Assembly (NCBI GenBank): GCA_905250025.1
Contig: CAJNOJ010000150.1
Span: 62,001 to 126,000 of the forward strand
Source of the DNA: Adineta ricciae
Taxonomy: Eukaryota > Rotifera > Eurotatoria > Adinetida > Adinetidae
Reading direction: 5' to 3'
Length of the DNA stretch: 64,000 nucleotides
Shown: one piece after another, positions 57,507 through 62,957 of the stretch
How the letters are laid out: every line of letters begins with the position of its first letter
Position numbering within the stretch: the first letter of the stretch is position 1
Position numbers and translations under genes: made by a program
The notes under the pieces: model-generated
What the model saw: the letters and a program-made list of their open reading frames with translations, nothing else
Database searches by the model: none
Told to the model about the DNA's origin: nothing

Positions 57507-58653
57507 TCACATGCGTGAGCCACGTTCTTGTAAAATCTAGAAGAAAAGTCCAACAATAACATCATTGTGTCATTATTTCCACAATAGACTCACTTTAACT
57601 CGTTCGGAGACTGAAGTATTGCTATCTTCCCTTGTACCTCGATCATATTGTTTGGAAACAATACACAAAAATTCACCTTCGGGATACATATAACTTGAAC
57701 CGACAGGAGAATGGCCGATTAGCTATGGAAAATAAAGCAGATTTCAGCAAACAATAGAAATGAAATTAGTTCGGTAGATGTCTACCTGCTCAAATTTCCA
57801 TCCATCGCTTAATGAAGACATCAATTGTGTAACTTCTTTTTCCTGACATTGAATTACACGATATACACGACTTGTTCGACACTAAAACATAGAGCATTTC
57901 AAAGCTTCTGGAATCTTCTTAGTAAAAACCAAACAACAGACAATGTCATGCTATTTCAAATTCCATATGCGTGACACTTCGAATATTTCATCTATGTTAA
58001 TCCGTTGATGTACTTTCGTTTCTAGCATAAAGAATCTAGATGATAAACTATGTCAGCTATGTTTGGTGGACTTTGTCGAGTATTTCATCTGAAAGAAATG
58101 GGCGGTGTACATTTGTACTTACATCATTGAATTTTCGCTTGTCTCGTTCGCGAATTTTTTCTTTCACAAGTTCAATCAGAGGTCGTATGTTATAAAATTC
58201 AGCTTCTTCGAGTACGCCTTCTTCGACGAGATTTGTCTCGAGGATCAGTTTACCATGCCGAAGATAACTATATACAAAGAAAAAGAAGAAACATGACAAT
58301 GAAAAATCGATGTGTATATTACTTTAAGACGACGTTGAAATAGTTTGGATCACGATCGATTAAATAGGCTCCTTTATCATCCTACAGCGAATGAAATTGA
58401 TCAGAATTTCTCGATGAATTGATCTGCAACTTACAACATCAGTTTTGAGATCAGGTTCATGTTGACAAAGTCTGCCGAGAAATGATTCTTCCTTTGATAA
58501 AGTTGAACGTGTTGTCATGAAATGCTTGCCTCCGACATTTAACAAAACCCAATCGCGTTTACAATCAACTGATGACACTGGACGGGAATCGAAATGCACT
58601 ACTGAGTTCGTATCACCATTTTTTTGACTTGAACTATTATCATTTGTGATCAT
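57507..58653 (-). CDS. KCTD5: KCTD5-type BTB/POZ cullin-3 adaptor
   Basis: Multi-exon gene from ATG 58653 ([15 protein letters not shown]) to stop 57507-57509. The BTB fold begins [20 protein letters not shown] with [14 protein letters not shown] and [14 protein letters not shown] blocks and RHGKLI. It continues [20 protein letters not shown] and [10 protein letters not shown]-terminal domain follows ([40 protein letters not shown]), ending [10 protein letters not shown]. That end is practically identical to human KCTD5. KCTD2/5/17 are pentameric substrate adaptors for CUL3 ligases; KCTD5 targets G-beta-gamma. An upstream in-frame Met at 58698 exists but adds only hydrophobic residues and is judged 5' UTR. 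Confidence 0.93.
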
Positions 58654-59204
58654 TTTATCAGAAAGAACTACACATGCAAACGTCCAGAATGAAACCAATT
58701 CGATCTAGACGTTCGAACAAAAGAGAGAAGAAAAAACACAATACGATATTTTTTCTTTATTGAACATTAATTGATTACTAAATATATCCAATACGAATTG
58801 ACTAGATGGCAGTAGACATTAATATAGATTAAATCAGTCAAGTATGCAGAAAGAGAAATCTCCGATAGAGAAATATTTTTTTACTCATACATTATGTCGA
58901 TTCATTTCTCAAGTATGTCGAACTAAGAAAAAATATGAAATATTAATTAATATTTGGCCTTCGATGACATCAAAGAGAGACGAAGAAAAGAAAAACACGA
59001 TGAAATTCTGAGCTTTCATATGATGTAATATACAAAGTATTGTCAGACAAACTGCGACAGTCATTGGTTAGTTTTCACTAATAGCAAGCAATTTTCTTAT
59101 TTTCCCTTCTCTCTCTCTCTCGCTCCTTCATTTCGCACAAAATAGTCATTAGTTTCACACCTGTATATTACGCTCTACCTTGTGACAGAGAAATATTTGC
59201 TTTG
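58654..59204. other. Intergenic, no gene seen
   Basis: Upstream region shared by KCTD5 (-) and the small plus-strand ORF; AT-rich with a CT repeat near 59110. Confidence 0.45.
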
Positions 59205-59387
59205 ATGGATACATTTTTCGGTGCCGGTCGCATCTTTAACGGCGATCCTTTCGATAGTTACAGTGTTGCATACGATGGGCCGTATCCACCACCTGGCTAT
59301 ACACTTGTTCAAGATTCGATAACATACGTCAGTAGTTCTTTCAGTCCAGTCATGAATCCTCCAATATGGGACTATTATCAGTTCTAA
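59205..59387 (+). CDS. Possible small protein of unknown function (60 aa)
   Basis: A 60-codon ORF (MDTFFGAGRIFNGDPFDSYS...) with Pro/Tyr-rich composition and ending NPPIWDYYQF. Supporting points are an acceptor-like TTGTGACAG shortly upstream and an AATAAA signal about 35 bases after the stop. No signal peptide, membrane helix or known motif. It sits between KCTD5 and the lipase gene in a gap that would otherwise be empty. It could be a chance ORF or the last exon of a transcript with upstream non-coding exons. Confidence 0.4.
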   Translation: MDTFFGAGRIFNGDPFDSYSVAYDGPYPPPGYTLVQDSITYVSSSFSPVMNPPIWDYYQF

Positions 59388-59497
59388 TCTGTTTTTTTTT
59401 CTGTATCTGTGAATTCGTACAATAAAAACTTTAACAGATAGCTTGCTGGATTAACTAAAACTTCATACACACGCACACAAAGCACGAACAGATTAGT

Positions 59498-62400
59498 TTA
59501 GTCTATACGAGATGGCACAGCTGCGACGTCACCGGGATTTTCAGATGATTGGTGCATAATCTTTTTCATCATCTCGATAATTTCGATATTGTACTGAGCA
59601 ATTTCGGTTGCAGCAAAACCAAAATCGAGAAACCCATGTGGCCATTCATCGACAACAGTCAAATGATGTGGAACTTTGAGATCTCGAAGTCGTCGTGCAA
59701 ATTCCACATTATCGTCAATGAACGGATCTCGAAAAGAGAGACTTTAGTGGAAAGGCAAATGCAACTTTGAATGATCACTTACCACGTGCACACGGCTACA
59801 TCATCGAAGAAAGAGAAAGAAGAAAAATTAGTTGTTGTATAATGATAATAATAATTATTATTACAAAATATCTAATATTTCATTCATAACAGAAAAAGAG
59901 AACACAAACAGAAAAACAAACACCGCGAATACATGCACGGAAAGATCTACTCGGAAATCATATCTGAAAACGTTGAGATTGGAAAAATTGGATTTGTTAA
60001 TGGTGTGAAATTTTTCTTTTTAGATTGCTTTTTTTTCTTTTTTGAGAAACATGAAGATCGTGCGATCTCGTATCGTCGAGCTAGATCACTCATAACGAGA
60101 TCAGCTGCTTTTTTACAATGGTAATTGGCATTATAAAAACTCAGAAAACCATGTGTTACATTATGTACAATAACCATATGATGTTCAACAGATAACGAGC
60201 GTAAACGACGAGCAAAAGTTACAGAATCATCCAGTAAAGGATCTTGATGGCATGCCTGAAATATTTGAAGTATGCACAACAAAAACTAGACTGGTTTCAG
60301 GATATAAGGACGAAAACAATTGATGGACGATATGAATCAGTACTACTTAACGAAACGGTCAAAGAAAACAACTTACGACTAGATAGGTAGTTGGAAATTG
60401 TCGAAGAACGTCATCAGACGCACGTAGTGGAGACATATAGGGATTGTTGGGTAAGGTTGATTCACGGAGTTTTCGAAGGAGTTTTGCTTGACGTGAACCC
60501 ATGATATCACCTATGATGAAAGTACAATCGTCAAATTAGCTTTATCCCGTGAATATACCTAATCGCGTGTAGTATGTATCATCTCGGATGTATTCAGGAT
60601 TTTGATTTGTAGTGGAAAGTTTTGCTGTGTCGATTGCAGTCTCATCAGATGACGAAAGAGTCTTCTCTATTTTACGGCGTTTACCAGCCGGAATATCACC
60701 AACATCTTCAGAAGCTGCCGCCGATTCCAGAGCATCATGGGCTGGTTCCTCGTCAGCTTTGATGCCAGCATAAGCAGCTAGACAACGCCAGAGAAAGCCA
60801 GTATTCAACAAGGGATCCATTATGGCCATTAGTCGTGATGGTGACATGCTACGTTATATGAAGAGACAAATTCCGTCATTAGATGTCTGTATGTTCAAAT
60901 TACCTATAGCCTAGTAGGAACGGTGTATAAAAACAGATGATTCCATCGGGTTTTCTCAAGCCAGCTTCGATTGCTTTGATTGTAACGATAGTAACTAAAT
61001 TTCCACCGGCACTATCGCCTACGAGCAAAAGTGTTTTGCCATTCCATCCAAGTTTATTGGCATTTTTCAAAATCCATGCATAGGCATAATAGCATTCTTC
61101 AATAGCACGTGGATATGGATATTCAGGTGCCAAGGAATAATCAATTGAAACAATAGGAATTTCAAAATTCAATGCCCAAGGTTTCAAATAAATCTAAATC
61201 AATGTCAGATAAACGCTGGTTTTCGTTTAGAATCTCCGATGAACATACTTCATGAGTACTAGATGAAGTGGCAATAAATCCACCACCATGTATATGCACA
61301 AGAAGATGATCGCTCATGGGTAGAGTTTTTGTTGATGCAATTTCTAGATCAGCTTTTCTCAACGGTAGTTCTTTCATGCCTTCACGAATTTCATTAGAGA
61401 GTAGTTTGATGTTTACGAGCTGTCCAGGTTGTTCACTACCAGAACCTGTTGGGTTGTCAGAACCCGCTCCAATATTTCCAACTGCGCGTTCTTTTGGTTC
61501 TTCGACATTATCAGGCCTTGCGGTCGGCGGCGGAACAACAACCGAACCAATTTCAATTGGCTCAGGTCCGATTTGAAAGTATTTCGACACGGTCACGTTT
61601 GGTACTATGTAGCGCGAACCCATTTTAACATAATCATGATCAACAATATTCCAAAATGCTTTACAAAATAAATAATCACTATCACGGAAAATAGAAGCAC
61701 ACTAGAAAGAAAAGGTTCGGCTTTCGGACGTTTTATACGATATGAAAATCAACCTTTTTTGCTCGTTGTTCTGGAAATAGAATGTATTTCGGTGCTGTTG
61801 CAATACTCGCAGCAGCGTAGGGTATTGATCGATTGAATGTTTCGTAGTAAGTAGCTAGGCCCGCGAGGAGAAATGTAAGCATTGTTTGCATGGATGAAGC
61901 AAACTAGAATTATATAAGAAAAGCAATCGTGAGAGACACTTTCTTTGCACAAAAACTTCCTTCTTACTTGAAATCCACATGTACGACCAAAGAAATATTC
62001 CGAGTCGTACGCGACCATCTTGAAATAATCCAATTCAATATCAAGTGGAACATGATCAGCGTCAACCTAAACAACCGAAGAACATCACACATTCAATTTA
62101 ACAAGCAAACATCTCATGAAACTATGTTTCTTACATAGAGGACTGTCTTTTTAGAATAATCCACCATTTTAGCAGCCAATGCTATGATACGTTGCATGGC
62201 TATCAATGCTTTTGTCCACGATTCGAGATCTTGAAATAATCGTGAGGAATACATTAGATTGAACAACAGACCAACACGTTTGGTATCGACTTGTTGGAGA
62301 ATATCTAGCGTTCGTAAACAGGCTTGTCCGTGTGCGACGACTAGTGTTCGATAACCATTGGCTCGGATCTATTGATTAATACAAAGAAAAGTCCGTTAAC

Positions 62401-62957
62401 AATTAAATGACAACGGAAAATACCTCGGAACTGTAATCGAAATGATGAAAATTGTCCGTCAAGTAGCGGATATGGGGCATAGATGTATCTATCGATTGCA
62501 GAAGTTGGATTAATAGATGTTCAAATCGTCGACAAACATCGGTTTTCTGTTCCGAAAAATATTTACAATTGGTATCTGCTAATTCCCTCAATTTTGTATA
62601 GGTCAAATCGAAATTATATTCAAGTCCCACAGTATCTGGTGTTGGTGGCGTCAATGAAGTTCGCATAGTTCTTGGCAGACGATTCAAATGGGACGGAGTT
62701 GTTGTGGAAGTGCGTATGGCTGTTGCAGAAGCATTCGATGATAATTGGAATAGCGAAAATCTCTCATTGTTCTTGGCAGATATTGTGTATTTACGTTTCG
62801 TTGTCACGGCTGGTGATTGTTTTGATAGGCAAGACATTAGACGACCACCAGCAGCAGTCAGTGTTCCAATTGGAAAGCGATCCGTGATTGAACGAAAAGG
62901 TCCATCTGACGAATTGTTTTTCTCAGCTTTCGAAGTTGGCTCTTCTGTGATTTCCAT
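59498..62957 (-). CDS. LIPE: Hormone-sensitive lipase with two alternative 3' ends
   Basis: Multi-exon gene from ATG 62957 (MEITEEPTSKAEKN), preceded by an apparent 5' UTR intron. HSL hydrolyses diacylglycerol, cholesteryl and retinyl esters on lipid droplets. An N-terminal HSL-specific domain covers about 62650-61500 (RELADTNCKYFSEQK, SMQTMLTFLLAGLATYY, FNRSIPYAAASIA). The alpha/beta-hydrolase part has the oxyanion motif HIHGGGF near 61290 and nucleophile GDSAGGN near 61010. A regulatory-type insert (60560-60780) is Ser/Ala/Glu-rich. After the exon ending TTYLV at 60377, two endings are possible. Ending one: exon 60255-59947 (ACHQDPLLDDSV...THGFLSF). Ending two: microexon 59783-59795 plus exon 59727-59498 (CARDPFIDDNV...PHGFLDF). 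Both supply Asp and catalytic His. The full structure is otherwise intact. Confidence 0.93.
59783..59795 (-). other. LIPE: 13-nt microexon of the lipase gene (alternative 3' end)
   Basis: Between an acceptor ending GATGTAG and a donor GTAAGTGA on the minus strand lie 13 bases coding P-C-A-R plus the first base of Asp. Joined to 59727-59498 it restores CARDPFIDD, matching human HSL CALDPMLDD. Skipping it would break the frame. Confidence 0.7.

Follow-up and report, generated by a model that had tools for sequence, protein, structure and literature searches.

Two tandem, homologous terminal exons probably serve as alternative catalytic endings of a bdelloid hormone-sensitive lipase

The window analysed here is a 64,000-nucleotide stretch of contig CAJNOJ010000150.1. 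Its last 4.5 kb hold, on the (-) strand, a complete hormone-sensitive lipase (HSL) gene, as seen from an exon model with an open frame. Exons 1 to 8 (62957-62424, 62368-62135, 62066-61968, 61903-61754, 61701-61249, 61193-60904, 60848-60559 and 60510-60377) span 60377..62957 and encode 728 residues common to two predicted isoforms, which end in exon 9a or exon 9b. All junctions used in the model are GT-AG, and the exon 1 donor is GTATTT. The initial annotation, made from the letters of this stretch, had called the gene a hormone-sensitive lipase, and the Pfam results confirm this. HSL_N (PF06350) in the common part scored 170.4 bits against a cut-off of 25, and the alpha/beta hydrolase domain (PF07859) scored 147.6 bits with 9a and 144.6 bits with 9b, also against a cut-off of 25. 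The common part carries the HGGGF motif and the nucleophile motif GDSAGG (S551). Residues 1-829 of the 9a isoform are identical to the A. ricciae protein P0001, and the gene is apparently the bdelloid HSL of Adineta ricciae or a very near relative.

Exon 8 (60377..60510), the upstream partner of both endings, closes at the donor CTAGTC/gtaagt. An intron of 121 bases (60256..60376) leads to exon 9a (59947..60255), which opens behind the acceptor tttcag/GCATGC and finishes with GAG TAG. It encodes 102 residues and a stop, including Asp733 (in DPLLDD), His763 (in THGFL) and a basic tail. A spacer of 151 bases (59796..59946) separates the 9a stop from the acceptor of a 13-base microexon (59783..59795), which is the first part of ending 9b. 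This microexon reads CCGTGTGCACGTG between the flanks gatgtag and gtaagt, and it encodes PCAR plus the first base of an Asp codon. After a 55-base intron (59728..59782), exon 9b (59498..59727) begins at ttcgag/ATCCGTTC and finishes with GAC TAA. Together with the microexon it supplies 80 residues, with Asp733 in DPFIDD and His763 in PHGFL. All of these features lie on the (-) strand, and the positions first assigned to them (60377; 60255-59947; the microexon; 59727-59498) hold throughout. It had also been proposed that each ending restores the frame and has its own stop. This is borne out by the spliced translations, in which both endings prolong the exon 8 frame to a stop of their own and the isoforms are open throughout, at 830 aa (9a) and 808 aa (9b).

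Pairwise alignment of 9a and 9b gives 22/39 identities (E = 2e-16), as expected of the homologous yet diverged exons that had been described. Each exon had been said to carry the catalytic His, which is correct (His763 in both) but understates the exchange, since catalytic Asp733 lies in both as well. The two residues are 30 positions apart in either isoform, and Ser551 lies in the common part. In an alignment of the 9b isoform with human HSL, the Asp and His fall on human residues 693 and 723, which we take to be the triad residues. Alignments of 64 proteins, one headed by a 9b protein and one by a 9a protein, show an invariant His and a nearly invariant Asp, and Ser, Asp and His occupy the family positions in both isoforms (S551, D733 and H763). 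The predicted folds match the human HSL structure 8zvq over 552-556 residues, with low confidence in the stretch between the two hydrolase halves; assessment of the triad geometry relied on alignment, predicted secondary structure and fold match. By the gene model, an exchange of endings is predicted to affect two of three triad residues together with the closing part of the fold and the tail.

The endings were also compared across relatives with a second protein search that used exon 8 plus an ending as queries. Counts from this search refer to the 120 listed of 206 proteins. Of these best 120, 30 belong to the 9a type and 32 to the 9b type, annotated Rotaria proteins included. Among them, the densest 14-residue stretch after the His contains 5-9 Lys/Arg in 30/30 9a proteins and 0-3 in the 31 scored 9b proteins. 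By translation, 9a has a basic tail and 9b has none. Leu follows the catalytic Asp-Pro in 9a, as it does in 90/129 other endings. Phe stands at this position in 39/39 9b endings and in 3/3 of a second type of monogonont ending, and it is found in 0/18 9a endings, 0/4 first-type monogonont endings and 0/129 other endings; the 9a and 9b rows were chosen by motif, so this count describes those types, is partly built in and is no test.

An exon search located four HSL loci in the genome: the window copy (C150), one on C87 and two on C51. Exon 8, 9a and 9b were each located at these same four places. The C87 copy has 93.5% DNA identity to the window copy. The two C51 copies are 93.6% alike over 4.2 kb and have about 70-75% DNA identity to the window, in pieces. 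We take C150 and C87 to be alleles and, because bdelloids are tetraploid, the C51 pair to be ohnologues. The layout is equal in all four loci, with 118-121 bases from exon 8 to 9a (118 in the C51 copies), 87-153 bases from the 9a stop to the microexon (spacers of 87-88 in the C51 copies) and 55-61 bases from there to 9b (61 in the C51 copies). The microexon has 13 bases at every locus, 12 of them equal between the pairs. With the same layout in four loci and a microexon differing at only 1/13 bases, the two-ending arrangement is, by this comparison, not due to chance. The C51 copies themselves lie in the same orientation about 73 kb apart, at about 263-268 kb (L011) and 336-340 kb (L010). In the 336-kb copy the first exons are cut off at a single N in the assembly (L010 near 4207), and for this reason the pair on C51 is likely due to the joining of scaffolds and not to true tandem duplication.

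Substitution rates were calculated by simple counting (NG86) on these short exons. Comparisons between the diverged pairs have dS of 0.75-1.13 and give dN/dS values of 0.26-0.32 (9a) and 0.21-0.26 (9b). Comparisons within the pairs give 0.11 and 0.08 (9a) and 0.07 and 0.42 (9b). These values suggest purifying selection on both endings. Since 9b follows an ending that is complete and has a stop codon, it could be read as the decaying relic of an exon or gene duplication within the 3' untranslated region, leaving 9a as the sole real ending. Against such a relic, all four loci and 32 bdelloid proteins among the matches listed have an intact 9b, its dN/dS between the diverged pairs is about 0.2, the microexon and splice sites are preserved, and seven public models end in 9b alone. 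We rejected the relic on the intact copies at the four loci and in bdelloid proteins, and we give it practically no credence. Decay of one copy or of its splice sites in relatives had been raised by the initial annotation; in the allele, the diverged pair and other bdelloids no decay was found and both endings are intact.

Our preferred reading, to which we assign a probability of about 0.85, is a single HSL gene in which two homologous terminal exons stand in tandem and are alternatively spliced. From this one gene, the animal probably makes two enzyme versions. The exon 8 donor would be joined either to the near acceptor, giving 9a, or past 9a to the far acceptor, giving the microexon and then 9b. 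Either ending would complete the alpha/beta-hydrolase fold and bring an Asp and a His to the Ser of the common part. The regions that distinguish the isoforms would then be the surroundings of two of the three triad residues, the loop following the His, the final helix and the tail, and the most likely effect would be two active lipases that differ in substrate preference or location. The reading first proposed was likewise a duplicated 3' exon that yields two mutually exclusive C-termini of HSL, and it is still the best one, supported by layout, conservation and dN/dS. The analysis shows the sequence, frame, splice signals, conservation, substitution pattern and predicted fold, and we infer that both endings are used in RNA and that the isoforms differ in function. 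The different substrate or droplet binding suggested for the two C-termini is only a hypothesis.

All four copies lack a GTRAG donor both within 9a and within the spacer, which makes 9a behave like a last exon. The stop of 9a would keep the two proteins mutually exclusive even if the RNA runs on. The use of 9a as an internal cassette exon was considered and set aside on the same missing donor, with a weaker GTATTC/GTATTT site remaining. This site lies past the 9a stop in all four copies, by 14 bases in C150 and C87 and by 19 bases in the C51 copies. Splicing from this site could connect a 9a transcript to the microexon inside the untranslated region of that transcript. Poly(A) hexamers gave no information on transcript ends, and ATTAAA overlaps the 9a stop in both C51 copies.

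Public gene models were surveyed in the 20 top-ranked bdelloid entries from the first protein search. Ending 9b alone closes seven of them, 9a alone closes one (Rotaria sordida), and four have no ending. Another five run through 9a past its His and then into 9b, and three join a truncated 9a to 9b. The microexon reading is used in 10/20 entries. The entries with whole or truncated 9a joined to 9b are P0001, P0003, P0004, P0005, P0006, P0007, P0010 and P0014, and their joins differ from entry to entry. Taken at face value, these eight annotations would make the real product a single fused chain in which 9a lacks its stop and runs on into 9b, giving two Asp-His segments. However, the joins sit at different places in different entries, and 9a is without a GTRAG donor in 4/4 copies. 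A stop after a similar tail is also common, since 23/30 9a proteins among the matches listed stop at most 17 residues from a [TI]NP[IS] motif (seven do not), and a second Asp-His segment would have no evident place in the fold. The fused chain was rejected on its inconsistent joins and missing donor, and we consider it very improbable. Because the joins are inconsistent, the fused and truncated models are probably gene-prediction artefacts and the endings likely alternatives.

Several observations weigh against two working endings. AATAAA is absent between the 9a stop and the microexon in all four copies; this weighs weakly, because AATAAA is also absent from the 150 bases after 9b in C150. 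One of the two close-pair 9b comparisons gave the dN/dS of 0.42, from ten differences (4 synonymous, 6 nonsynonymous). Both A. vaga models finish in 9b, and no 9a was seen in A. vaga. Lastly, the sole cDNA-like bdelloid contig, P0016, reads unspliced into the intron after exon 8. The frames of P0016 (3223-base contig) and of the monogonont P0052 (4367-base contig) run past exon 8 or its equivalent, as if into an intron. P0016 spans the common exons without an intron-sized insertion and looks like a cDNA in which the intron after exon 8 was retained. A retained intron fits a slowly or alternatively spliced one, and neither junction is displayed by P0016.

Another possible explanation is that only 9b yields working enzyme and that inclusion of 9a is regulatory or non-productive, through an alternative stop, RNA decay or an inactive isoform. 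The unspliced intron of P0016 is compatible with this explanation, as is the excess of entries ending in 9b alone (7/20) over those ending in 9a alone (1/20). Exact use of a 13-base microexon in 10/20 models would also suggest RNA support for 9b. On the other hand, 9a retains the frame, the triad residues and their spacing, and its dN/dS between the diverged pairs is 0.26-0.32. A mere stop-bearing exon needs no frame, triad, spacing or constraint, and a purely regulatory 9a is disfavoured for that reason. The Leu after Asp-Pro in 9a also matches 90/129 other endings, compared with 0/129 for the Phe of 9b. We regard an enzyme made from 9b only as unlikely.

Evidence from other bdelloids fits the two-ending gene. 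Both endings occur in Adineta and Rotaria proteins and in public contigs. Among the matches listed, Gln directly precedes 9a in 12/12 bdelloid frames that reach upstream, which fits the CAG/G acceptor. Exon 8 is followed by V-S or V-R in 24/25 exon-8-bearing proteins, which fits a donor at the same place, and the remaining one, an annotated protein, is joined to 9b. In a tree of the common part, Adineta and Rotaria genes of the C51 type group together as a clade (99/100). Both 9a and 9b occur inside and outside this clade, so that, by this tree, the exon duplication predates the split of the two bdelloid gene classes. A separate observation concerns three of the 32 bdelloid 9b proteins among the matches listed (P0166, P0186 and P0212), which have a Trp just before the catalytic Asp. 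This is a misfit to an AG acceptor directly before the exon, and these lineages may have lost the microexon or shifted the acceptor. Scans of viral_contigs and genome_contigs for DNA of relatives gave 28 and 109 pattern matches, none of which was confirmed as a rotifer relative.

Monogonont-like sequences also show two types of ending. The first resembles that of other animals (P0026, P0029, P0060 and the fragment P0207), and the second has Phe after the catalytic Asp-Pro (P0021 from Brachionus calyciflorus, P0035 and P0044); rows other than P0021 were assigned by tree placement. Monogonont contigs end in one type each. Two monogonont genes with one ending each were rejected on the common part (p-AU 0.0044 and 0.0063), in a test with 8 monogonont rows, 6 of them with an ending, whose groups were set by ending type, itself excluded from the tree, after an earlier common-part tree had been seen. 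Carriers of the two types interleave in the common-part tree; the interleaving forks have support of 92/99, not starred, in this test and 100/99, starred, in the earlier tree. Given the interleaving and the rejection of one clade per type, one gene with two endings appears to explain the monogonont data better than two genes, and the two-ending arrangement may predate bdelloids.

The tree built from 56 endings places 9a, 9b and each of the two monogonont types in a group of its own. Support for uniting 9b with the second monogonont type is 91/80, which is suggestive only. With support at only this level, and with 9a plus 9b as one clade not rejected (p-AU 0.279), it is possible that the endings were duplicated independently in bdelloids and monogononts. 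This concerns their origin only. The Phe after Asp-Pro argues against it, being common to 9b (39/39) and the second monogonont endings (3/3) and found nowhere else, in a count whose 9a and 9b rows were picked by motif. We consider independent duplication a real possibility with less than even odds. We see about an even chance that the endings are older than the bdelloid-monogonont split and have been kept as a splicing switch of the Asp-His half of HSL, giving two lipases of different specificity or location per HSL gene. If so, the two might serve, for example, storage-fat release versus membrane or sterol ester turnover, or drying versus feeding.

Two further frames lie beside the gene. A (+) frame in 59085-59426 heads toward HSL and ends ...NPPIWDYYQF. 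Its stop codon occupies 59385-59387, and an AATAAA follows at 59421-59426, some 70 bases short of the HSL 9b stop. If this frame is a gene, its 3' untranslated region probably overlaps that of HSL. Downstream of HSL on the same (-) strand, a frame at about 57510-58653 resembles a BTB/T1 domain by eye and is a putative KCTD-type protein.

HSL is a central and heavily studied enzyme of fat mobilisation, whose mammalian isoforms share one catalytic C-terminus (PMC2887374). Natural interchangeable catalytic endings, kept in both gene-copy pairs and in at least two bdelloid genera, would provide a test of the specificity residues around the Asp and His. Bdelloids survive drying and starvation, and in them the choice of ending would be a point at which splicing could control stored lipid. 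Public rotifer gene models are frequently in error at this gene, with 8/20 bdelloid entries fusing probable alternatives, and are worth correcting. The arrangement is notable in that it would exchange two triad residues of a central metabolic enzyme, appears to be old and is misannotated in public data.

In open-licence PubMed Central, searched mostly through titles and abstract starts, we found no report of alternative HSL C-termini or of rotifer HSL splicing. The initial annotation knew of no described equivalent. As far as our searches go, two alternative catalytic endings are new for HSL, but tandem duplicated last exons as such are already known in GNAO, TPM1 and insect serpins. Exons 7 and 8 of GNAO are its last coding exons, and Manduca serpin-1 is an example of alternative C-terminal exons, which in serpins encode the inhibitor loop and are often many. 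The present gene resembles human HSL (LIPE, 8zvq) in having HSL_N and Abhydrolase_3 domains, the HGGG and GDSAGG motifs, Asp and His at the 693/723 columns (9b isoform) and a matching predicted fold. In mammals, HSL isoforms are distinguished at their 5' ends (exons A, B and T) and all three share exons 1-9 (PMC2887374), whereas here the catalytic C-terminus itself would be alternative. In vertebrate GNAO, which encodes G protein alpha o, local duplication gave two mutually exclusive, conserved exon pairs, 7.1-8.1 and 7.2-8.2 (PMC5896119). The likeness is in duplicated, mutually exclusive exons at the C-terminal end; in that signalling protein the swap affects receptor coupling, whereas here catalytic residues of an alpha/beta hydrolase would be swapped. 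Insect serpins likewise alter the protein end by choice of a C-terminal exon and so vary the part that sets specificity (PMC10513286). Unlike their exons for an inhibitor loop, the two HSL exons each carry enzyme active-site residues. Among 236 tandem duplicated exon substitutions in human, 77 swap C-terminal regions, and the swapped regions overlap only 10.7% of predicted ligand-binding residues (PMC9741552). A count of exon switches that affect catalytic sites gives nine (PMC7954323). As far as these sources go, the two HSL endings are of the same kind as the human substitutions and would swap catalytic residues.
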